From positions 1-64,000 of the IMG/VR virus record IMGVR_UViG_3300024243_000005: 64,000 nucleotides of DNA; one strand, written 5' to 3'. Every line of letters starts with the position of its first letter. Positions within the stretch are counted from its first letter, which is position 1. The position numbers were made by a program, and so were the translations under genes. Under the pieces are notes generated by a model, which saw nothing but the letters and a program-made list of their open reading frames with translations, was not told the DNA's origin and made no database searches. Positions 4,556-42,025 of the stretch are shown here, in pieces. This DNA comes from a virus.

Positions 4556-7500
4556 ATGTCCGATGACCCCACAGTAACCGTACGAGAGTTCGTTGAAGGC
4601 GTTAATCTGATGCAGTCCCAGATGGGGCTGTCACAGGGGTCAATGGCTACTTCCGGTGGGCTCCCTCAAGGGTTGAATACCACTGCGCCTTACAACCTAA
4701 CAATCCCGAAACCACACCCGGTGAAGGCGCCCGGGGAGTTCGCACAAGAGGTATCCCACACTGCTCGCGCACAACAATCCTACGCGGATCAGTTCGCTCA
4801 ACGTATACGCCACGTTCAAGCGCAGTACCTCACACCCCACCAGGCACAAGCCTACGCTACTTCTGCAGGGGCAGCATCGTTTACGTCGCTACCGAGTGCG
4901 GCGTTTCAGACAGACCCGTCCATGGGGGTGTTTCGCCCTGGGTTTGCAACGCCCGCTCCGGTAGGCCACCCATCGTCCATCAATCCGCAGTACCCAACAG
5001 CGCAGTATGTTCACCCCGCGTTTCGCCCACACATGCCAACGGGATTCCGTGATCCTCTGGATATGCAATCCGATTGGCAGAACTACGATAATCAGAAGAA
5101 CTTTGCGTCGTGGACAGCGGGACAGGTGCACTCCCCAGGGTGGGGCACCACGGCGGTAGGAGGGGGCATCGGCGGTTTCATGGGGCTTGCTGCAGGTGCA
5201 GCAGGTGCATCGTACATGCCAGGCATGGGGCGCTTTGGGGGCGTCGCACGTGGTCTCACCATGGCAGGGGGTATGGCAGCGGGTGCGTGGGCCGGGGGTG
5301 CTGCAGCACCAGGAATGACGGGAGGGATCACTCGGATGGGGGGCGCCATAATGTCCCCGCTGGTGGACACACGCGCACAGGGGTTGGCGCTACAGAACAT
5401 GTCGCGCGGGTTCGTGACGAGTGGCAATGATCTCAACCCCCTGACAGGGCAGGGCCTGACAACACAATCTAGCGTCGGGTTGTCGAACAATTTGCAGCGT
5501 ATGGTCAGCAACGGCGAGACGGGTGGTTTCAACATCCAGGACATGATTAAGGTAGCGGGTCTGTCTGCTGATTCCGGTATGCTCAACATGTCGCAGACCG
5601 GGGACCAGATTGCAACCCAGGTTAAGAGTGTCGCGAAGGCGCTGAAGTCCTTCATGCGCATTGCGCAAGAGCCAGACATCCGCTCTGCCATGCAAGAGCT
5701 GTCACAGATGCGCCAGTTTGGCCTCAACCTCCCTGAGAGCCTGACTACTGCTGCAGAGACGGTGCGCTACGCGCGTATGGCGGGTACGACGCCCGGCAAC
5801 ATACAAGCCACGGCTGGCCTCCCAGGGGCAATGACGTACCAGCAGCTTGGCATGACTGCGGGTCTTGGTTATCGCACGGGTATGGCTGCAGGGGGCATTG
5901 CACAGCAGGCAGTGAACCGAGGCGTGTTTACACCAGGGCAGCTCGCAATGTCCGGAGGTATGAGGGGAGTACAGCAGACACTAACCGAGGGAGCGGGGGC
6001 CGCGCTGGGTATTGACTTCCAGACGCTGGGTCTCCTTTCTCGGGGCAGTGAGGGGCAGCTCTCCATCGACCAGGGGCGGGTCAACGACCTAATGAATGGG
6101 AATGTTTCGCTGTCGGACATGGCGGGCATGGCGGCATCCAATGTGGGGCGCCTCTCCCAGGGCGTGGGTGCAGAGAATCTCTTCTCCGAGTTCAGCACAC
6201 GGCGTAATGAGCTACGCAATGAGCTAGGCAGCACACTGGGACCACAAGGGTCTCAGATGCTCATGATTCGTGCGGCACAAAGTCTGCGTCAAGAGTTGGG
6301 TGGGAACATCTCCATCGGTGCAGCGCTTCAACAAATTGCACCTGGGATGGCTACAAACCAGATTCGAAGTCTGGAACTCCTGGCCACGAGTCCTGCCTAC
6401 TACGAGAGCCAGTACGCTGGAAACGAACGGCGGATAATGGGGATACGTGGGGCGGAAGCTGAGCGCTTGCAGCGTATGCAATCAGGTAGTGAGGCGTCCA
6501 ACCAGTTGGGGCGTGCCTTCAGCGGTGTAGGGAACGCGGCGTGGGATGCCAAGAGCCACTTCGGGGATTTCTGGGAATCAGCCAGTAGCCTCTTCTCAAG
6601 TACCCCCATGGAGGAATACGCGAAGTCCATGGGCGCGGATTACGTACGCCGCCCTGATGAATTGCTGATTGAATCCAGCAGGGAGTCTGCTCGGCTGCAG
6701 GAGTATGTAGGATCCGAAGAGTACGGACGCTACGCAAGTAGCATGGGACTCCCGAGTGGGAAGACGTCCATGGCAGGGCACTTGAGGCCATCTGGCTGGA
6801 CGCAAGCCAAGAGCGCTGCAGCAGGGCTGCTGCAAGTGGGGGGCACCCTCGCTACGTTTGGGGGCGGTGCTGTTGCTGCAGCGGGTATGGCAGCAACCAT
6901 GGGATCTGGAGCCATTAACGTAAGCTCAAACGCAACGAAGATGCGCAACTCCCTCGGAGGGGTGGGGGCCTGGCTCCAACCTGATTGGCTGATCAACGTC
7001 GACATGGGAGGGGAGAGTGATTATCGGCGTAAGAAACTCGCCAACTGGCACGCAGACGCTGCCACAGCAGGGGCAGGGTTGCGCGACGCTCGCGGTATGT
7101 CCGTCACTGATTCAGTGGCAGTCACGGGGAAGGTACGTGAGGAGTATACGCGCCTGGCAGCTAAGCACGGTGTCACTGGAGACAGAGATTTTCGAGGAGC
7201 CATCGTAACAGGGCTTCGCGGTGTGTTCGAAGAGCATGGGAGTATGTTTGGGGATAAGGCAGTAAGCGATTCTGTGCTGAAAGAGAAGGCGAAAGCAGTG
7301 GTAGCACAATCGACGAGCCCTGCGTTCGCTTCTGAGTTCATCGCAACCATGTGGGACAACGGGCTCCGCACGTCCACCCTCCGAGAGCTACAAGACAGTA
7401 CCCCCGAAGATAGTACCGCTGGTGGTGCAATATCCAAGACCGCGCAAGTGACGGAAGGGGTGCTTGTTGCGGCGAATTACGGTGACCTCACCAAGGTGTT

Positions 7501-26572: not shown

Positions 26573-29221
26573 TCAGCCTCCACATCCGCTGGACCCACCA
26601 CAGTTGGTGCATGTGTGGCAATTGCCACGTCGCACTTGCACGTTACCACACTCAGGACAGGGTGGACCGTCCATGAAATCAGGGGTTGACAGCGCCGGAC
26701 GCACCACTTTCGTTGTGGGTGGGGGCGCAGCCTTCTCCTCCCCGTTGGGGGTGGGGGCGCGACGCTCACCCAGGAAGATGGCGCTCAACTTCCGAGCCAC
26801 CGCGTCAGGGATGCTGTGCACGAACCCCAGGTCAGGATCAGAAGAGAACCCAGAGGGCTCGAACTTCATGTACGCAAACTTCTTCACCACCGCATCCAGA
26901 GGGATCCCTGACTGCAGAGCGTAGGACATCATCTGGGACCAGGATTCAGTGAGCCCCTTTACGGTAGACCCCTCCTTGGCGATAGTGATGAACACTTCCC
27001 CGGGCATCTGCGTGTCGTAGTACGGGGTGACGATGACGTACATCTTGTAATTCCCGAACTCAATGCGGATGCGGTGTGCGTTGTCGTGGTGGTCGAGCAG
27101 CTTCTTCCGTGCGTAGCCGTCGGAGCTGTCTACCGGATGCTCGTGTGTGCTCTCATCCGTGACCAGGGGCTGGCTGGACCTGCTGCCGTCTCGATACACG
27201 ATGACGCTCTTGAGTCCCTTCTTCCAGGCGAGGAGATGCGCGTGACTGATGTCCTCCAGGGATGCGTGTTGCGGCAGGTTGATGGTCTTGCTGATGCCCC
27301 CGGACAAGAACGGCTGTGCGACCGCCATCATACTAATATGTGCGTCCACAGACAGGTGCCGAGTACCCTTGCCCTGCGTTGCACAGTCGAACACCCCCAG
27401 GTGTGCTGGGGGAAGCCCCGCGTCCTCGAAGTGACCCACATCCTCGAACCGCTTCAAGATGGGGGCGACGGCGTCCTCGGAGTACCCCATGGCCGCAAGT
27501 GCATTGCTGACCAGCGGGTTGGTCGTCTGGACTGTGCCCCCACCCACCAAATGCTTCACCTTGTTGAGCCCTATCTCGGGCTCGATGCCTGTGGTGACAC
27601 AATCCATCATGAAGCTGATGGTCCCCGTGGGCGCCAGAAGCGTCACCTGGGAGTTGCGCACCCCGTATTCCTCCACCAGGGCCAGGGTCTCCTTCCAGAG
27701 CACCTCAGACGCCTGGAACTGCGTGGCGGCGTCGTAGTGCTGCTTGAGCACACGCATCACGTCGTCGCGATTAGTCTTGTAGCCCGCGAAGGGGGTCTTG
27801 GCTGCTGCCAGGTACGCGGAGGTGTTGTACGCGGTCGCCGTCATGTGGGATGTAATGGCTGCAGTGAGGGCGCGCGCCTCATCTGAATCGTACCCGAGGC
27901 CCATGGACATAATCAGCGCACCGAGGTTGGTGTAACCGAGGCCCAAGGGGCGGTAGTCCAACGCCACATCCCTGATGGACTCCGTGGGGTACGCCGCCTC
28001 ATCAATCAGCAAGTCTTGGGCAATGATGAGAACTTCTGCCGCGCGTGCAAACTGGGTGAAATCAAACTCCCCTTCCTCCAAGAACTTGAGGAGGTTGATG
28101 CTCGCGAGGTTACATGCACCATGGTCCAGGAAGTGAAATTCCCCACACGGGTTGGTTGCGTTGATGCGGCCTGTTGATGCACAGGTATTCCAGAAGTTTA
28201 CGGTGTCGTCGAACTGCAACCCCGGGTCACCACACTGGTGTACGGAGTCGCAGATCTCCGCCCACACCTCTTGCGTGCTCAGGGGCACCTCATGTTCTGG
28301 AGCGTTGTTGTACTTCGGTTCGTATTTCACATCTTCGTCCACACGGACCAGCTTTTCTACCCCTTGCATGAACTGGTCCCCCACGCGGACGGCGTGGTTC
28401 GCATTCTGGAATGCCACCGAGTAGTATGCACCGTGGGGATCGTCGAAGTGAGGGCTGTACCCTGCGGCGATGAGTGCCTGTGCCTTCCCTTCTTCCAGTC
28501 GCTTGCACCTCACGAACTCCAGGATATCGGGGTGGTCAGCGTCGAGGATGCGCATCGTAGCTGCCCGGCGAGTCTTGCCCCCGGACTTGATGACCCCGGC
28601 CCAGGCGTCGAGACCCCGCATGAAGCTGACGGGACCTGACGCGATGCCGCCCCCACTGAGCCCCTCTTGGCTGGACCGCACGCTGGAGAGGTTCACCCCC
28701 GCGCCGGACCCACGCTTGTACACTCGGGTCTCTTCGACCTGGAGCTGTGCCAAGGATTCCATGCTGTCGTCCACGGCCAGGATGAAGCACGCAGACGCTT
28801 GGTGCTCAGTGCCCTCCACACCCAGGTTGAACCACACGGGACTGTTGAAGGACGCGTGCTGGTGCAGGAGCAGCCACGCCAGATCCGCGAAGTACGCAGT
28901 GCGTGACGCCTTGTTCTTGAAGTACGGGCTGAGAGATTCCCAGTGCTGGATGCACCCCACAACACGCTTAATGAGCTGGCGCACGCTGGTTTCCCGGGCG
29001 GGTGTGTTGAGGGTGCCCCGGAAGTATTTCTGTGCCACGATGCGAATGGCCAGGTTGGACCATTCCGAAGGGGCCTCTACGCCACGCTGTTCAAACACCA
29101 TTTCACCGCTGGGGTCCGTGATGACAGCGTCTTCGGTCTTCCATGAAACCGTAGCGTAAGGGTCCTGCTTGGGGGGACAGAATTGTGGGGTGTACTGAAG
29201 GAGGTTGTTTGCTGGAGGCAT
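26573..29221 (-). CDS. nrdJ: Ribonucleotide reductase, class II (adenosylcobalamin-dependent)
   Basis: The 882-residue enzyme shows the reductase core: FNSPVWFNLGVEG (about 125-137), SACF with a redox Cys (C145), KRGSGAGVNLSSVR, the active-site loop NPCGE (357-361) with the thiyl Cys and Glu, the second redox Cys in HGACNLASIN (C370) and PTGTISF further on. The C-terminus has a Cys-rich ribbon (CPECG, CHTCTNCGG) that can reduce the active site. No separate small subunit gene is present, and the layout matches NrdJ, which uses vitamin B12. It converts ribonucleotides to deoxyribonucleotides for phage DNA synthesis. AGGAG lies 10 nt before the ATG. It is first after the RuvC-like gene in a five-gene operon. 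Confidence 0.93.
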   Translation of the reverse strand: MPPANNLLQYTPQFCPPKQDPYATVSWKTEDAVITDPSGEMVFEQRGVEAPSEWSNLAIRIVAQKYFRGTLNTPARETSVRQLIKRVVGCIQHWESLSPYFKNKASRTAYFADLAWLLLHQHASFNSPVWFNLGVEGTEHQASACFILAVDDSMESLAQLQVEETRVYKRGSGAGVNLSSVRSSQEGLSGGGIASGPVSFMRGLDAWAGVIKSGGKTRRAATMRILDADHPDILEFVRCKRLEEGKAQALIAAGYSPHFDDPHGAYYSVAFQNANHAVRVGDQFMQGVEKLVRVDEDVKYEPKYNNAPEHEVPLSTQEVWAEICDSVHQCGDPGLQFDDTVNFWNTCASTGRINATNPCGEFHFLDHGACNLASINLLKFLEEGEFDFTQFARAAEVLIIAQDLLIDEAAYPTESIRDVALDYRPLGLGYTNLGALIMSMGLGYDSDEARALTAAITSHMTATAYNTSAYLAAAKTPFAGYKTNRDDVMRVLKQHYDAATQFQASEVLWKETLALVEEYGVRNSQVTLLAPTGTISFMMDCVTTGIEPEIGLNKVKHLVGGGTVQTTNPLVSNALAAMGYSEDAVAPILKRFEDVGHFEDAGLPPAHLGVFDCATQGKGTRHLSVDAHISMMAVAQPFLSGGISKTINLPQHASLEDISHAHLLAWKKGLKSVIVYRDGSRSSQPLVTDESTHEHPVDSSDGYARKKLLDHHDNAHRIRIEFGNYKMYVIVTPYYDTQMPGEVFITIAKEGSTVKGLTESWSQMMSYALQSGIPLDAVVKKFAYMKFEPSGFSSDPDLGFVHSIPDAVARKLSAIFLGERRAPTPNGEEKAAPPPTTKVVRPALSTPDFMDGPPCPECGNVQVRRGNCHTCTNCGGSSGCGG

Positions 29222-30912: not shown

Positions 30913-32091
30913 GTGGCGTACGTAAAGACAGTGATGGATTGTACGTCGGAGACCATCATGGTTTCTGGCGCAGAGAAGGTGCGCTTCAAGGTCGTTGCGC
31001 TCGTAACGGACAAAGGGGACTTTCCTGACAAATATCTGTACGTCATCAAGATCGTAGACCCCACCGACGCCAAGGACGACACCTTCACACGCGTGGTAAC
31101 TGTGCCCGATTTCAGTGAGATCGGGATAGACCGCACCACAGCGGTAGCCGCCAGCGCGTCTTACTACCGTGTGCTCACCCACACTTTCTACTACGACAAC
31201 GTTCACACTGCAGCCGCTGCGAAGGATGTCCTCAAGGCGCGCATCGACGAGCTGGCCGAGAACTGGGTGGTGTACGACACTGCGTTTTCCGCATCATCAG
31301 AGGTCACAGACCACCCACGCCCCCAGCCCAGCGCATTCACGGCAGCAGTCAAGGACCACACCACACAAACAACTGCCACCGCCGCCGTGCTGAAGCTACA
31401 AACAGCAGCCAAGACAACGTACGAAGCTGCCAAGACCGCAGCTACGGCTGCTACCACTGCAGCCACAAATGCTAAAAAAGCGCTTGACGATGCTGAGGAC
31501 TCCAAGGAGTGGTTCGACGACCTCCTCTCTGCGTTGTCGAACATACGCACCACAGCAACCCTGTACAGCGCCACAGGATCCGGGGGTGGGCTGTTCTCCA
31601 CAAAGTCCAAAACCTTCAAGGCCGCAGCCGGGTCTTTCTACACCCAGGGAGGCACCTTCCAGTCTGCTGCACAAGTCCTCCTCGGACAATGTGCCAGCGC
31701 CACCCCTACCACTGCGCAGAAGAGTGTCTACAGTGCGGCCAGTAGCCAGTTCGACAACGACGAGTCTGCCTTCAGCAGTGCGAAAGCGATCTGGGACAGC
31801 GCCTTAACGCAGTTCGACGGTGACCTCACCACGTTCCGCCAGGATGTAGCAGCAGCAACCCTCGCGGAAAGCACTGGGCAGTCCAACCAGGTGCTGTTCG
31901 CCGCGATCGTCACCACATTGGGTGGTGCGTACACCACCGCCCAGGCAGCACAAGTAACGGCTGACCAAGCGGTGGCAACGACACGCACAGCGTACGAAGA
32001 TGCGAAAGCAGCGTACACAGCATCACAATCCCTGCTCGACGAAAAGCTCACGGCGGTTCGTGCCCTCAAACCAACGTGGACACCTACTTGA
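30913..32091 (+). CDS. Ala-rich coiled-coil protein with duplicated N-terminal domain
   Basis: The 392-residue protein (GTG start, 1 nt after the previous stop) has an N-terminal domain of about 125 residues like the preceding protein. A long Ala/Thr/Gln-rich helical region (about 135-385) follows, with alanine heptads like those of trimeric fibre shafts or whiskers. One break (ATGSGGGLFS) divides the helix. The stop forms TGATCA with the stop of the convergent gene, so the two ends touch. It may be a fibrous virion protein. Confidence 0.55.
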   Translation: MAYVKTVMDCTSETIMVSGAEKVRFKVVALVTDKGDFPDKYLYVIKIVDPTDAKDDTFTRVVTVPDFSEIGIDRTTAVAASASYYRVLTHTFYYDNVHTAAAAKDVLKARIDELAENWVVYDTAFSASSEVTDHPRPQPSAFTAAVKDHTTQTTATAAVLKLQTAAKTTYEAAKTAATAATTAATNAKKALDDAEDSKEWFDDLLSALSNIRTTATLYSATGSGGGLFSTKSKTFKAAAGSFYTQGGTFQSAAQVLLGQCASATPTTAQKSVYSAASSQFDNDESAFSSAKAIWDSALTQFDGDLTTFRQDVAAATLAESTGQSNQVLFAAIVTTLGGAYTTAQAAQVTADQAVATTRTAYEDAKAAYTASQSLLDEKLTAVRALKPTWTPT

Positions 32092-33672
32092 TCAAGGGCT
32101 GAAGTACATCCCTCGTGTCACCATCAGTGCACTGTCCTCTTCGTCCGTTATGTTCATGAAGGGAAAACCCCTCCAATCCTTCAGGTAGCGAAAGAGATCG
32201 TCGAAGTCATAGATCCGGTGCTCGTCAGTCTCTTTCGTGGTCATCACAACAATTTCCACCGGCCCCGTATCGTGCCTCGACATCTCAACATGGTGCATTT
32301 CAGGTTGGCACACAGCGAAGCCACTCTTGTAGCTACACGTGTATGGCCTTCCGTGTATTAACGACGAGACGCACAACCACAGCGCGAACTTCGAGTGCAC
32401 CAACAGATCTTTGGTTGCCGGTGCTTGTGCCCACTCTGCATCCAACCTCCGCTGCATGTCAGCGGGGAGCCACGCATACAGTCGCCGGTAGCTGGAAAAC
32501 TTCAGTGCGTCCTCGTGGTACGCAGACACGCTGTCGCGGCGCACGTAGGCATTCAGAGGGAGTATCCCATCACCGTACAGCGACGCGGGGTTGCGCACTT
32601 GACTCAGCGTCCACCAGCACTGCCTGTTCGTCTCGGGATTTTGCTTTTTGAAAGACACCCCAGCGACCTGTGCAAAGCACCATATCTGGCGCAGCGTCCA
32701 TGAGGTGTGACACCTCTTCAAGATACCTTGCACGGTGCTCATTATGTAACGGGTAGCGTGTTCATCAGTCCAACGCTTATGCTTACATCCGCGCGACGCC
32801 CAGGGGGTACAGGGGGACCCAAATACGCCAGGTTTAACGACATACGCACTAAAGATGCAGTTACTGCATTCCTCCCGATGCATCTTTCGGGTTTCTGCCG
32901 CGCTGACCGCATTGGCACTGCGCGCTGCCCACGCTTCGTCAACACCAGTAAAGTCCGCGTGTACAGGCGTGATGAGACCCTTACCCGGCATATCGTGGTC
33001 CGGGGTAATGTACTTGGGAGGGATTGCAGTGTACCCAGCGATCTTTGTCTTCCAGTACCGAACGTCTTCACGCCATTCATCCGCGTCCAGTTCGGAATCG
33101 GTGTCTGAGAAATCAGTGCTGATGGGGACTGTAAACAACTCACGCTGAGCCGGAACTGCGATGGTGCGGATGTATTTACGCTGTAAATTGTTGTTGAAGC
33201 ACTCTGACGTTGACCGGATGGGGCACCCTTCACAGGCAGCAACAGCGTACAACTGCCTACAGTATTGCCGTATGTCGTCCCCTGCGGGGACACACCACAC
33301 AAAGTCTTTGCGAGCAAAATACATCGCAGCAATACGTAACTGGAGTACGTACGCCATGCTCGACCCAACAAACAGCTTGGTCACTTCAAGAGAGTCTTCG
33401 GATTCGGCGTTACCGTATCCGGCGCGACGTGCTCCGAATGTCGCACACGTGTACGCGAAGACCCCATCGGGAAAGTACTTGGTGATGTCTGGATGACGCA
33501 TCACTCGCGTTATCTCCGTTTCAGACCAGACTGCGTCTTCTCGGTGAAACACGAGACCGACCCCTATCCCTTCATGGGGGCGATGGTGTCTTGCGTATCG
33601 GGGTGGTCTATCGGTGCACAGCGTAACCATGAGAGGGGGTATGGGCCTCGACTTCAGGATGCTATCAGGCAT
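32092..33672 (-). CDS. Unknown protein with two four-Cys clusters, downstream of the reverse transcriptase
   Basis: I place the start at the ATG at 33672, which overlaps the stop of the RT gene by 8 bp, giving 526 residues. The frame is open upstream to 34062, but there it only shadows RT and encodes Ser/Arg-rich junk. No ribosome site is seen, so translation probably depends on ribosomes that finish RT. Two cysteine groups stand out: C128, C137, C140, C148 (including CEGCPIRSTSEC) and a second around residues 255-295 (CSNC with two more Cys after GVFGSP and SRG). They could hold zinc or iron-sulfur clusters. I recognise no enzyme family. Its fixed, coupled place next to RT suggests the two act together. 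Confidence 0.6.
   Translation of the reverse strand: MPDSILKSRPIPPLMVTLCTDRPPRYARHHRPHEGIGVGLVFHREDAVWSETEITRVMRHPDITKYFPDGVFAYTCATFGARRAGYGNAESEDSLEVTKLFVGSSMAYVLQLRIAAMYFARKDFVWCVPAGDDIRQYCRQLYAVAACEGCPIRSTSECFNNNLQRKYIRTIAVPAQRELFTVPISTDFSDTDSELDADEWREDVRYWKTKIAGYTAIPPKYITPDHDMPGKGLITPVHADFTGVDEAWAARSANAVSAAETRKMHREECSNCIFSAYVVKPGVFGSPCTPWASRGCKHKRWTDEHATRYIMSTVQGILKRCHTSWTLRQIWCFAQVAGVSFKKQNPETNRQCWWTLSQVRNPASLYGDGILPLNAYVRRDSVSAYHEDALKFSSYRRLYAWLPADMQRRLDAEWAQAPATKDLLVHSKFALWLCVSSLIHGRPYTCSYKSGFAVCQPEMHHVEMSRHDTGPVEIVVMTTKETDEHRIYDFDDLFRYLKDWRGFPFMNITDEEDSALMVTRGMYFSP
33175..33187. repeat. Palindromic site TTTAC-GCT-GTAAA, copy 3
   Basis: Exact copy of the TTTAC-N3-GTAAA palindrome, inside the coding sequence of the Cys-cluster protein next to the reverse transcriptase. 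Confidence 0.75.
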
Positions 33673-34753
33673 CCGGAGGACACTGTACTTGTATTGCACG
33701 ATCCAGTTGTCTGCGCAGGTTCGAAGCGCGCTTCGGGTTGATACCGTGGAAGTAGTTAATCTTCCCATCCAGGTGCGCGATGAACGACCCCACCAATGCG
33801 TCTTCCGCCTCCAACGCCATGTTGTCAGGGTCAAACCCGTAACGCACAGCGTTGACCGCGAAGCCGTGGTGGAGACAGTTGTGCAGGAGCGCACGGTAGC
33901 GCCTGTACTCATACTTCGGAATGTTGGGATGCACGTTGCAGACCATGCCCAACATACGCTGCTGCGCGGGCTGACGCTGCACTCTACGCTTCTTGCGGTG
34001 CTCTCGGTACTCACCACCCTGGACGAGCTTGACCACGGCGTCGATGATGTGCTGAATCTCATCCCGTGTTTTCTTGTCAGGGTGAGAGATGGTCAGGTCA
34101 TCAGCGTAACGTGTGTACACCCACCCAGACCCCTTCAAGAAATTCAGGACGGGAACGTCGATGGCCTCCTGCGCCATGAGGTTGCACAACGTAGGTGACG
34201 CAGGTGACCCCTGGGGGGTGTAGTGCCTCAAGCGGAGTTCCCCTTTCATCTTCGGAGAGGCGATGCGCTCCCCGACGGTACAGAGGTCCGCAATCATGCT
34301 GCACACGCGGTGGTCGTAGCCAAACGTACGCTTCAGGAAATTACGCACTCGTGCCCGGGAGTGCGAAGGGAAGAAGTCCTGAATGTCCAGCGCGATACGG
34401 ACGTAGTGCCCTGCATGGCGCTCAACGCTGTAACGACACCCGATACCGGGGCGGTACGCGCCAACGCTGTCACCCATGTGCTGGGTGCGTAGTAGAACGA
34501 AATCAATCTGCTTCTGTACGTACTTCAACCGCGCTTCGGGAGCGTGGATGATCCGCTTACCCCCAGACTTCTTGGGAATGCTAAACCGCTTATAGAGGTC
34601 TTGCTTCGTCGTAATGAGGTACCACAGTGTACGACATCGCACACCGAGGTGCATGGCCAGGGAGAAGTCATCAAGGACGTACGGCACGTTCTCCGGGGGT
34701 AGTGCCCCAGGGATCGGGATGATGTCGGCTGTTGTATCTTTGTAACTACTCAC
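33665..34753 (-). CDS. Retron-clade reverse transcriptase
   Basis: The 362-residue protein shows RT motifs in order. These are FSIPKKSGGKRIIHAP (57-72), GAYRPGIG (98-105), motif A IALDIQDFFPS (120-130), motif B TPQGSPASPTLCNL (179-192), the YADD catalytic box in YTRYADDLTIS (213-223) and a retron-type thumb segment with LGMVCNVHPNIPKYEYRRYR (268-287), where retrons usually have VTG. The end (HLDGKINYFHGINPKRASNL) is also typical of that clade. The GTG start at 34753 has a strong site (GAGGAGGAGG) and overlaps the stop of the upstream gene. It needs an RNA template, but no noncoding stretch exists within its operon. See findings. Confidence 0.93.
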   Translation of the reverse strand: MSSYKDTTADIIPIPGALPPENVPYVLDDFSLAMHLGVRCRTLWYLITTKQDLYKRFSIPKKSGGKRIIHAPEARLKYVQKQIDFVLLRTQHMGDSVGAYRPGIGCRYSVERHAGHYVRIALDIQDFFPSHSRARVRNFLKRTFGYDHRVCSMIADLCTVGERIASPKMKGELRLRHYTPQGSPASPTLCNLMAQEAIDVPVLNFLKGSGWVYTRYADDLTISHPDKKTRDEIQHIIDAVVKLVQGGEYREHRKKRRVQRQPAQQRMLGMVCNVHPNIPKYEYRRYRALLHNCLHHGFAVNAVRYGFDPDNMALEAEDALVGSFIAHLDGKINYFHGINPKRASNLRRQLDRAIQVQCPPDA

Positions 34754-35372
34754 TGGGCACCTCCTCCTCAGCAGGAGTGGTGATGTTCCCTGGCCGGATC
34801 ACCAGGTTGGTGTAGCACGCTGCGCTTCCGAGTTGACATTTACCCTGGAGGCGTAGCATGCCGCGAGGGCACGCACGGCAGATGGGGCGCACTGGACCTT
34901 TCGGAGAGAACAGAATGGTGTCAGGAGTGAACAGGTGTTCGAATGTGTTGGTATTCTCTTTGCCCTGGTGGCGCGTCGCGGTGATGTAAGCCGGAATCTT
35001 GTTTCCACGGGGCGCGTTATGTTTCTTACGCCGTTGCTCTAACCCCATTACTGGAATCACCAAGAAGTGATCCTGCGCATTCTGCAACACGCGATTTACG
35101 TTCGTTGACACTACGCGGTGTGGGCGCCCTGGATTAGGAAACCGTTCTGCGTATTGCACGGTGTCAATCAATTTCAGCAGAGTCTGGATCAGAGGTGTAA
35201 TGGTGAAGCAGAGTGACCAGGGAAACAACCGGGGTATCACACCCCCGTGTCCCACAGGGACTAAGTAGATGAGGTCGAAGGGGAACTTCTTCACAATCTT
35301 TTGGTCTACACGTACTTTGAGAATCTCGTCGGGAGTTATACGCGTCGGAGACGCATTACTGCGCGGGCACAT
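34746..35372 (-). CDS. Unknown protein with C-terminal Cys cluster, upstream of the reverse transcriptase
   Basis: The 208-residue protein overlaps the DUF2201 gene by 17 bp and RT by 8 bp. A four-Cys cluster (CRACPRGM, then GKCQLGSAAC) lies near the C-terminus after the words FSPKGPVRPI, and the rest is a mix of strands and helices. The cluster spacing resembles that of the conserved protein at 50616 (C-x2-C, then G..C and C), so the two may be distant relatives. The function is unknown; nucleic-acid binding is a fair guess. The place in front of RT makes it a candidate partner. Confidence 0.6.
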   Translation of the reverse strand: MCPRSNASPTRITPDEILKVRVDQKIVKKFPFDLIYLVPVGHGGVIPRLFPWSLCFTITPLIQTLLKLIDTVQYAERFPNPGRPHRVVSTNVNRVLQNAQDHFLVIPVMGLEQRRKKHNAPRGNKIPAYITATRHQGKENTNTFEHLFTPDTILFSPKGPVRPICRACPRGMLRLQGKCQLGSAACYTNLVIRPGNITTPAEEEVPSE

Positions 35373-36717
35373 TTTCCATCGGGAGGTGAAGGCCGTATCC
35401 CGGGGATGGCATCTTGCCCCCCGGAGTTATGAGCCACACCACAGGAATCGGGACACGCACCTCGGGCTTCGGCTCGGGTGCGTACCCGTCCGTGGCGTAC
35501 ACCAGGACATCAGGTTTTTGCATACTGGTTTTCAACAGCTCCTTGGTCTTGACGAACACGGGGTCAAAATCAGTACCACCCCGTCCCACCATATCGAAGT
35601 CGATATCACTCACCGACTCCGCCGGTTTTACATACGCTACCTTTGAATCGCACTGCATGACCCAGATGTACACATCGCTCTCGCTGGTAGCCAGGGACAG
35701 CAGCTCTTCCATGGCCAACTTCAGGTCGTCGTGGGACATGGACCCACTGGTATCGATGGCGAAGACGATGGTGAACTTGTTGTCGTACTTCTTCCCAGGG
35801 TAGGGCAGGATATCGTCTATCTCGTGCAGCCTCCGATTAGGGCGCTGCATCCCGCGTGCGGACTTACGCTGTTTGGTACGGATGCACATCCTGCGCAGTA
35901 GCACAGGCCAGGGGATCACTGGCGGCTTCAGGAATGCCTCGATGCGCTCCTTCAGATAAGCAGGTGTGACACCACGCGCCTTCTCGTGCTGCGCCAGCGC
36001 CTTCTCCACGGTATCGCGTGCTTGGTGTCGCAGCTCTTCTGCCATGGACACCAGCTCTTCGGACGTTCTGCCCTTGATGAATTTGCGCCAGTGCGCGTGG
36101 GGGTCCCCACCTCGGCTATCCGTGAACTGGTCACGGAGTTCTTGCTCCGATCCACACCCACCACCTTCACTTCCACCTCCGCCTCCGCTCCGCTGGTCCA
36201 ACTGCTGCAGCAGACCAAACTGATACACCTCGTAGGGTTGAGCGCGTGGCATCTTGTACGTCTCAGGAGTCAGGAACAGGCGCCCGTCTGTCTTATCGGA
36301 CCCAAAGAACCAGTCCTTGTACTTGTCATCGAAGCCTGGCTCCAGGCGCATGACTTCATTGGTGGCGAGATCCGCAGCGATGTTCTGCACCGCCTTGAAC
36401 CGCGCTTTCTCTTTCTTCGTGCGCAGCGTACTCATCAACTCCACGCACCGGGGAATGTGGTCGTTCAGGATGTGAATCAGTTCATGTGTGAAAGTGAGCA
36501 GCAACTCCTGCAGAGGCATCTTCGAGACCATATCTTCGTCGTAGAAGAGGCACATACGCCCCTCTTTGCTGACACCCACACCCATGGTACCGAAACCAGG
36601 GACGTTGACACGGTGCAGCGCTTCAATGACGCTCGCGGCCAAACTGCGGAACTGCGGCTGTAGCCAGTACATAATAACATCACCCAGACGTTGTCCATCT
36701 GCGTCCGGGAGTGGCAT
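35356..36717 (-). CDS. DUF2201-type putative metallopeptidase with VWA domain
   Basis: The 453-residue protein has an N-terminal helical domain with the zinc motif HELIH (78-82) and a Gly-rich break (about 190). A C-terminal von Willebrand A-like domain includes the metal site IDTSGSMS (around 320-330) and GRGGTDFDP. This is the domain order of DUF2201 proteins, which are usually paired with a MoxR-type ATPase; such an ATPase is encoded at 38429. The pair is thought to remodel or activate target complexes. The ATG at 36717 was chosen with GAGGTG about 10 nt upstream; a TTG at 36723 is also possible. It heads the operon that contains the reverse transcriptase. Confidence 0.85.
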   Translation of the reverse strand: MPLPDADGQRLGDVIMYWLQPQFRSLAASVIEALHRVNVPGFGTMGVGVSKEGRMCLFYDEDMVSKMPLQELLLTFTHELIHILNDHIPRCVELMSTLRTKKEKARFKAVQNIAADLATNEVMRLEPGFDDKYKDWFFGSDKTDGRLFLTPETYKMPRAQPYEVYQFGLLQQLDQRSGGGGGSEGGGCGSEQELRDQFTDSRGGDPHAHWRKFIKGRTSEELVSMAEELRHQARDTVEKALAQHEKARGVTPAYLKERIEAFLKPPVIPWPVLLRRMCIRTKQRKSARGMQRPNRRLHEIDDILPYPGKKYDNKFTIVFAIDTSGSMSHDDLKLAMEELLSLATSESDVYIWVMQCDSKVAYVKPAESVSDIDFDMVGRGGTDFDPVFVKTKELLKTSMQKPDVLVYATDGYAPEPKPEVRVPIPVVWLITPGGKMPSPGYGLHLPMENVPAQ

Positions 36718-37803: not shown

Positions 37804-38469
37804 ATGACCTTTGCACAGGCACTGCAGAGCGCAGCCCGGCGACGACGTACTGTTGCCCCGGGGACCGAAGCAGCCACACTCCAAGACCCCGAAGCACCAG
37901 CCACCGCCTGCTTTGAGGCTGTACAAGCCCTGCTCGGGAAGGCGAGCCTCAACTGGGAGCCAGAATCCCTGTGGCTGACGCTGGAGAGGGAGCACAGCGT
38001 TGACGTGCCTCTACCCAACCGGGCGAAGATCCTCGCAGCCAATACCCTGGTACTTGTGCCTGCCTTCTGGTGGGAGGTACACGCCTTCATGCACACCATC
38101 TCAGCGTTCAGCGGACACGTCACAGATAGTCGCGAAATCTTCGAAGCAACACCCGGAGAGCTGGCCTGGGGCGTCTTTGAGGCAGAGCTGCTGTTTCAAC
38201 AGTCCTCCGACATCCAAGCACAGCCAGAGTTCGACCGCGAACCCACGCTGTACGTCGCACAGCTACTCCACGACCAGGGATTCAGTGAAACACCCGTGCT
38301 TCTCGACTTCGCACAACCAGCATTGAACGCCCTCGTCCGAAGCAACAAACCCAACGAGGGCGTCCAAAAGGCCAAGCGCCAAGGGGTACAGGAGTACGTC
38401 CTAGAACAGCTACGTGTGTACCAGCTCTTTACGTCGCCAGCGCATCCGGGCTTCCCGCCGACTGCTTGA
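37804..38469 (+). CDS. Unknown protein
   Basis: A 221-residue, mainly helical protein (FEAVQALLGKASLNW, WWEVHAFMHTISAF and others) that starts 4 nt after the previous gene. It runs 41 bp past the end of the convergent MoxR-type gene, so both coding ends overlap tail to tail. No motif was recognised. It shares an operon with the FAWP-motif protein and may work with it. Confidence 0.6.
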   Translation: MTFAQALQSAARRRRTVAPGTEAATLQDPEAPATACFEAVQALLGKASLNWEPESLWLTLEREHSVDVPLPNRAKILAANTLVLVPAFWWEVHAFMHTISAFSGHVTDSREIFEATPGELAWGVFEAELLFQQSSDIQAQPEFDREPTLYVAQLLHDQGFSETPVLLDFAQPALNALVRSNKPNEGVQKAKRQGVQEYVLEQLRVYQLFTSPAHPGFPPTA

Positions 38470-39847
38470 TGCGCGCCTGCGCTTCCGCAATCTTGGTGAA
38501 CAGCCGCTCGAAGGACTTCTCCGTGCTCAACGCCTGACTGATGCTGTAGATGTAGTCGTTGCTCTTCCCACCAATCTCCTCCGCCGCTGCCGTTAGTTTG
38601 GACACGATGAAGGACACCGCTGCGTCAGACGGGAGGTCCCCCATGAAGCGACCCAGGTTGCCCTTCACCTTCTGCGGGTCAGGGTTGGAGGTCATGAGTT
38701 CCACTGCCACGCCGGTGCACACCTCACTGATGACGTCGCTGCGCCCTTCCTCCAGCATGGCCAACACCTTCTTGCGGGCACGCCCCTTGGTGCTGTACTC
38801 GTACACGATCTCACTGGGAGTGATGAGGCTCGCCTTGTTCTTGACGAACTCCAAGAAGCGCACAGCGGGGGTGCGCCCAATGAGACCTTGCATGGTGGTG
38901 GAGAGCGCTCGGTTAGCGTGAATGTCTTCACGCAGCTTGTCAGCAGTCTTGCACAGGTCGCTCACCGCTTCCCAACCTGCCGGGGAGGGGTACTGCTTAC
39001 CTGCGTCACGAAGAGCCGAGTCGTGCAGCTCCTTGCCCGAGGATTTGATGTACTCAACAACCAGGGGGTGGAAGTCGCCCTCACCCTGTGCGTAATTGAC
39101 CCAGGAAGCGGCGTTGATGTTCACGGGGAGGAAGCAGATGCGGCGGCGAAACGCCGGGTCACGCTCAGGCTCAGAGACGGAGTACGCAGCGCCGCTGGGG
39201 TTCATCGCGCACACCACCTGGATGCCCTCGGGGATGGTGTAGGAGTGGATGCGCCGATCGCCGAGCAGGGTGAAGAACACCTTGATGACTCCCATGTCAG
39301 CGCGATTCCACTCGTCGAAGAAGAGGAGACCCTCGGGTGGCAAGTTCAGGAGATCGTTCTGCAGCAGGAACTCGAAGGCACCCTCATCCTTTGTGCCCAA
39401 CGTCCGGATGTGTTCCATAGTCAGAGCGATTTGTACCTCTGCCTCTGCGACGTTGTCAGCAGCCTCGGTACCGTTGCCCTGCGCGAGGTAGTAGTTCTTC
39501 ACGTCCATCCAACGCGTAACCTGCTCAAGCAGGCGTGCCCTACGCGCAGACGCTGGAGCGGGAATGGCCACATCCTCGGGCTGCAAGTGCTGCAAGTTCT
39601 TCTCAATGCACGGGACTGATGTTTCCCACAGCTTTCCGTTCCAGTGGAAAGGCTCCGCTGGCACGCGACTCTCTGCGACCTGCCTGCAGATGTCCGTCTT
39701 ACCCATTCCGGAGGTACCAGTGAGGCAGCAAACGCTGCGGTGGTTGTACCTGTTCACCTCGATGACTTCACGCGCAGTGGTCAATCCAACTGCGGGGACA
39801 CCCATCTTCTGGTGAAACTGATCTTCACGAACTTCTCGGTCAGCCAT
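38429..39847 (-). CDS. MoxR-type AAA+ ATPase
   Basis: The 472-residue protein has Walker A (TGTSGMGKT, 43-51), Walker B (LLFFDEW, 174-180, followed by NRAD), a sensor-like segment IQVVCAMNPSG and an arginine region PERDPAFRRRICFL. This pattern is that of MoxR/RavA-like AAA+ ATPases. These act with VWA-domain proteins to remodel complexes, and a DUF2201/VWA protein is encoded at 35356. AGAGGAAGAGG lies upstream of the ATG. In the phage it may act on virion or host complexes; its substrate is unknown. Two unrelated plus-strand genes separate it from its presumed partner. Confidence 0.85.
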   Translation of the reverse strand: MADREVREDQFHQKMGVPAVGLTTAREVIEVNRYNHRSVCCLTGTSGMGKTDICRQVAESRVPAEPFHWNGKLWETSVPCIEKNLQHLQPEDVAIPAPASARRARLLEQVTRWMDVKNYYLAQGNGTEAADNVAEAEVQIALTMEHIRTLGTKDEGAFEFLLQNDLLNLPPEGLLFFDEWNRADMGVIKVFFTLLGDRRIHSYTIPEGIQVVCAMNPSGAAYSVSEPERDPAFRRRICFLPVNINAASWVNYAQGEGDFHPLVVEYIKSSGKELHDSALRDAGKQYPSPAGWEAVSDLCKTADKLREDIHANRALSTTMQGLIGRTPAVRFLEFVKNKASLITPSEIVYEYSTKGRARKKVLAMLEEGRSDVISEVCTGVAVELMTSNPDPQKVKGNLGRFMGDLPSDAAVSFIVSKLTAAAEEIGGKSNDYIYSISQALSTEKSFERLFTKIAEAQARIKQSAGSPDALAT

Positions 39848-41856: not shown

Positions 41857-41883
41857 CTGATCTCACTTTCGGTAAACCTTGCG

Positions 41884-41989
41884 TTCCGGTCACCAACCGA
41901 GCGGTGAAGTTTCTTTGGTCGATGGTGGCTGGAGTGCCCACAGACGCGATCGGGTAAAGAAACTTTACCGCGACGGGCGGGGACCGGAA
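41884..41989. repeat. Long imperfect inverted repeat (32-33 nt arms)
   Basis: The left arm (41884-41915, starting TTCCGGT and ending AAGTTTCTT) pairs with the right arm (41957-41989, starting AAGAAACTT and ending GACCGGAA) at about 26 of 32 positions, with perfect 9-bp and 8-bp ends. The loop is about 41 nt. As RNA it would fold into a strong stem; as DNA it could be a protein-binding or cruciform site. Confidence 0.65.
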
Positions 41990-42025
41990 GGGATTGTTTG
42001 CTGACCGATTGTTTATTTCCCATCT

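Follow-up and report, generated by a model that had tools for sequence, protein, structure and literature searches.

Known retrons typically comprise one reverse transcriptase (RT) and one nearby RNA, and act in bacterial defence. The locus described here raises the question of where a retron-type RT finds its RNA when the gene is packed into a phage operon with coding sequence on both sides. The stretch of DNA analysed, referred to as the window, is 64,000 nt long and belongs to a virus record of 180,179 bp (IMGVR_UViG_3300024243_000005, positions 1 to 64,000), labelled G000.

The RT cassette and its distribution

The ORF listing bears out an overlapping four-gene operon, as recognised in a preliminary description made from the sequence alone. 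Genes for a DUF2201/VWA protein, Cys208, the RT and C526 follow one another in this order (Table 1) without gaps, overlapping by 17, 8 and 8 bp, and the C526 gene abuts a convergent gene at 32091/32092. The RT gene has no non-coding gap on either side, leaving no room for an msr-msd in cis, as had been noted. The VWA protein also matches PHROG 1314 ('HNH endonuclease'), a name that is probably wrong, and together with the MoxR/AAA-type protein it looks like part of a linked ATPase pair.

Table 1. Positions of the cassette genes and retron-like RNA units in G000.
Feature	Position	Strand	Description
C526	32092-33672	-	526 aa; conserved downstream partner, two cysteine clusters
RT	33665-34753	-	362 aa; PADLOC RT_XIII 4.2e-66, RVT_1 2.4e-16
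Cys208	34746-35372	-	Conserved partner, CxxC-x10-C-x6-C
DUF2201/VWA protein	35356-36717	-	First cassette gene, DUF2201 metallopeptidase-like; Pfam 8.6e-14 and 6e-12
MoxR/AAA-type ATPase	38429-39847	-	Probable VWA-protein partner; same place in G001
Retron-like RNA unit 1	42077-41858	-	a1 TGATCTCA, G, SL1, SL2 GGGGGTG-CTA-CACCCCC, ~106-nt long hairpin, G, a2 TGAGATCA
Retron-like RNA unit 2	42284-42109	-	a1 TGCTCA, G, SL2 GCTGGCG-CAA-CGCCAGC, G, a2 TGAGCA
12-unit tandem array	148299-145941	-	12 triloop (SL2-type) hairpins, spacing 164-258 nt

Profile searches found the VWA, Cys208 and RT genes together in 20 distinct large-phage contigs, with C526 in 16 of them. The relatives that carry the cassette are metagenomic contigs. 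Three of the four contigs without a scored C526 end too early, and the fourth, L021, has a 529-aa ORF in this place that gave no score. A terL scan identified G001 (190 kb, terL 51%), in which the order of all four genes is identical, and further relatives came from a scan with the RTs of the window and G001; single-protein scans with RT alone and with C526 alone returned none. Gene order and strand are the same in the relatives and the genes mostly overlap. The recurrence of order, strand and tight packing in 20 contigs is more than would be expected by chance. The 11 cassette contigs searched with terL have a terL that is 47-56% identical to that of the window, indicating that the cassette travels with the phage family. 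It is absent from the terL-adjacent site of the two RT-less relatives inspected, Arash (terL 31%) and D181 (30%). In Arash, the minus-strand genes preceding terL (L011:45282-47581) look like those of an E1/ThiF-like (GxGGTG) and a JAB-like (HSHN) protein, at the place taken elsewhere by the RT cassette.

The preliminary description named the two unfamiliar Cys proteins as the natural partners of the RT, and their retention with it in relatives agrees with this. Four cysteines of Cys208 (C165, C168, C179 and C186) are invariant in 20 of 20 sequences, and six of C526 (C138, C150, C269, C272, C288 and C296) in 16 of 16. Neither protein gave a match of useful score in Pfam, PHROG, NCBIfam or PADLOC. 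Structure prediction, earlier suggested as a check on both proteins, was run on each singly, and the models, which are of poor quality (pLDDT 66 for Cys208 and 55 for C526), gave no fold match.

Three further features were seen in individual relatives. The short gap between the VWA and Cys208 genes of one contig contains a 21-bp near-perfect hairpin (L019:5130-5251). The ribonucleotide reductase of G001 (L008:5427-9569, 1380 aa) apparently carries two long intein-like inserts that its homologue in the window (26573-29221) lacks. The terL gene of G014 (210 kb; L239, G014:189964-192576) is read through several in-frame TGA codons, suggesting TGA recoding.

Affiliation of the RT

The RT has all catalytic motifs, including YADD, and LGM in the thumb instead of VTG; D123, D218 and D219 are invariant in 20 of 20 sequences. 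In a tree from a quick search (LG+G4), the RTs of the family form one clade (SH-aLRT 96), which is adjoined by L037 and then by L034, L035 and L052. Together these group with bacterial type XIII retrons at a weakly supported node. Intact motifs and position in the tree thus uphold the retron-clade assignment made from the sequence alone and place the RT beside those of type XIII. RT_XIII is likewise the best PADLOC profile for the window RT and most of its relatives. However, the match covers the RT core only (profile positions 108-425 of 469) and scores 222 bits, compared with 430-612 for bacterial members. The window RT lacks the N-terminal extension of a full-length RT_XIII protein, and its gene has different neighbours from those of type XIII retrons.

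In five other large-phage contigs (L039, L041, L044, L049 and L054), a retron RT of ~300 aa follows directly on a homologous VWA gene across a structured gap of 200-500 nt (upstream of RT, about 5480-5980), indicating that the two kinds of gene have come together in phages more than once.

Retron-like RNA units in trans

In a genome-wide folding-energy regression, positions 41881-42000, just 3′ of terL, are the most structured 120 nt of G000. Two retron-like units were recognised here and a larger array at 146-148 kb, all on the strand of the RT cassette, which is in keeping with the earlier proposal that the template RNA is encoded elsewhere in the phage, for example after terL. The RT gene is separated from the nearest unit by 7 kb and from the main array by about 110 kb, so that the RNA is not beside the gene as in retrons. 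Each unit is laid out as a1, a G, stem-loops including the triloop hairpin (SL2), a long variable hairpin, a second G and a2, i.e. an RNA closed by a1/a2 with msr stem-loops and an msd hairpin. Unit 1 folds into a1/a2, stem-loops and long hairpin (z -5.5, with 0 of 200 shuffles as good). Unit 2 is weaker, having an a1/a2 of only 6 bp that was placed with preference given to the G rule. The 12 units of the array follow one another almost without a break (0-25 nt apart); their tabulation favoured the G rule, and 7 of the 12 pass an unbiased test.

The intergenic stretch downstream of terL is structured beyond shuffles in most relatives (z -1.9 to -6.8), and in G005, G006, G007 and G008 it is a tandem array with units of ~190 nt. 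In G003 this region is unstructured and the array is located elsewhere. The corresponding intergenic region is 22 bp in Arash and 29 bp in D181. SL2-type hairpins form clusters of 5 and 3 in G001, 5 in G002, 6 in G003 and 4 in G012, and are also clustered in G009 and G010. In the full-length genomes so tested, random placement gives a cluster of at least 4 at P <=0.007 per strand, with the SL2 rule having been learned from these same arrays. No SL2 cluster was detected in the 181 kb of Arash, which is RT-less. In G004 and G011 the G rule yielded only a few candidates, and neither genome passed the cluster test. Strict counts also give a background outside the arrays, of several units for each strand of a genome. 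L034 and L035, which are sister phages, have their tandem units in cis, immediately upstream of the RT gene, and these contain an SL2 of the same type.

Eleven tandem units of one subfamily were aligned by sequence, and RNAalifold gave a consensus of a closing stem, two near-constant stem-loops and the triloop stem-loop. In this alignment 98% of cells are paired and 12 pairs have changes on both sides. The covariation score is 0.438; shuffled versions gave 0.153 ± 0.021 and slid ones 0.134 or less. Because unit boundaries had been set at repeats previously taken as a1/a2, the closing stem was in part a product of selection, which does not apply to its compensatory changes or to the other stem-loops. 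A covariance model built from the 11 units (R1) recovers the arrays in 1.27 Mb, and also weaker copies at other places in the phages that carry them. Identity between units is 85% in the first two stem-loops and 40% in the variable part.

Pairing of a1 with a2 was assessed in 50 units picked by their triloop hairpin within arrays. Own partners match over at least 8 bp in 24, whereas swapping the partners gives an expectation of 3.0; the observed mean was attained in 0 of 300 permutations. Among the 26 units with an a1/a2 of at least 8 bp, in the selection of which G positions played no part, a G follows a1 in 25 and precedes a2 in all 26, compared with both G in 9% of control inverted repeats (n=2451). 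Retrons prime at a conserved guanosine adjacent to a1/a2 (PMC8989520), and a guanosine suited to 2′-5′ priming is thus present here as sequence. A looser hairpin-plus-repeat statistic gave no clear enrichment, which the swapped-partner and G tests did show.

Two further features were discarded. The long gaps of L028, L030, L032 and L033 hold small ORFs, and dispersed repeats of 56-73 nt read as tRNA genes. The variable hairpins matched nothing notable elsewhere in the genomes searched, leaving spacer-like self-targeting unsupported.

A probable multi-template retron and its alternatives

The locus is best explained, with a probability of about 0.8, as a phage-borne multi-template retron with RNAs in trans, in which one RT with dedicated Cys partners makes many RNA-linked DNAs. 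The RT would bind the small stem-loops of retron-like RNAs encoded in trans on its own strand, with the units after terL and the array farther along the genome (145.9-148.3 kb) serving as templates. Priming would occur from the G that follows a1, and the long variable hairpin of each unit would be copied into a different RNA-linked DNA. Cys208 and C526 would be the dedicated protein partners of the RT, and the VWA protein with MoxR would probably remodel or control the RT complex. The arrangement would most economically derive from an ancestral retron with tandem units upstream of the RT gene, as kept in L034 and L035, the units having since moved and multiplied. The sequences support cassette conservation, RNA architecture, a priming-type G, covariation, co-occurrence and a sister cis form, and we infer that the window RT copies the array RNAs into RT-DNA. 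With the arrays 7-110 kb from the gene, what ties RNA to RT is that they occur together and on one strand, and that sister phages have the cis form; as all members of the clade have the RT, the two are inseparable within the family.

An RT that works differently, using no dedicated RNA (e.g. as a DNA-templated or protein-primed polymerase), with arrays that serve packaging, termination or replication, would fit a cassette devoid of cis ncRNA and arrays not beside the RT. This reading, one form of the different mode of action raised in the preliminary description, is unlikely given that units encoded in trans have every element of a retron RNA, the priming-type G among them, that sister RTs have similar units in cis, that long hairpins of differing sequence are not what a packaging site would show, and that arrays occur at several genome positions. 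The same description also considered a template RNA inside a gene. A classical retron defence system acquired by phages, with its real msr-msd hidden in Cys208 or VWA, would be consistent with the RT clade and the conserved neighbours, but synonymous-site conservation reveals no retron-sized constrained block upstream of the RT, rising only at the gene overlaps and in a modest VWA peak, and the cassette is conserved across the family in the manner of a core gene. We regard this as improbable. There is least to be said for a diversity-generating retroelement or a group II intron RT, although both kinds occur in phages (for group II introns, PMC12350094). No TR/VR-like direct repeat of at least 45 nt is present within the window, the group II profile scores 57.8 bits against a cut-off of 300, and Rfam returned no matches, group II RNA included, in the window and five array-bearing stretches; such an origin can be practically dismissed.

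The proposed multi-template retron resembles retrons of the Eco1/Ec86 type in RT clade and in having an RNA closed by a1/a2 with a priming-type G beside a1, small stem-loops and a long hairpin. It differs in that the templates are in trans, up to about 110 kb away, tandem and many per genome, in being without a known effector, and in belonging to the core gene set of a phage family. TIGR arrays are also tandem arrays of structured RNA in phages, but TIGR RNAs are 36 nt and are used by Nop-domain Tas proteins (PMC12045711), whereas a unit of the present arrays is about 115-250 nt long and is closed by a1/a2. The earlier suggestion of an undescribed system stands in part. Clear msr-msd elements, which it had named as counting against it, were found and go against its strong form, but the trans, tandem, many-template arrangement is itself unusual. 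Such arrays are unreported in the open-access literature searched, and as most subscription papers lie outside that scope, novelty is provisional.

The phage family appears to keep a retron-type RT as part of its core gene set, fed from trans arrays of many templates. The many different tandem template copies far from the RT gene suggest that these viruses may make a whole collection of small DNAs. If active, the RTs would amount to a natural factory for multiplexed ssDNA, of interest both for genome editing and for the conflict between phage and host, and would account for retron-type RTs in phages without a neighbouring ncRNA. The combination of a conserved scaffold with long hairpins that change, in gene sets that are core to these phages, points to a possible role in conflict with host defences or rival phages, to which we give slightly less than even odds. 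More speculatively, this may be a core system of lytic phages in which one RT with dedicated partners draws on an exchangeable set of at least a dozen templates, the ssDNA hairpins, turning over fast, forming a bait or effector arsenal against hosts or rivals.

The cis arrays of the sister phages make the origin of the arrangement traceable. L034 and L035 belong to a sister RT lineage and have tandem units with GGCG-NNN-CGCC hairpins, but in addition to the location of the units they differ in that the RT is fused to an N-terminal Cys-rich domain and there is no separate Cys208. A profile comparison of Cys208 with the fused domain gave an E value of 0.012, which is suggestive only; one may be the counterpart of the other, having been split off or fused.
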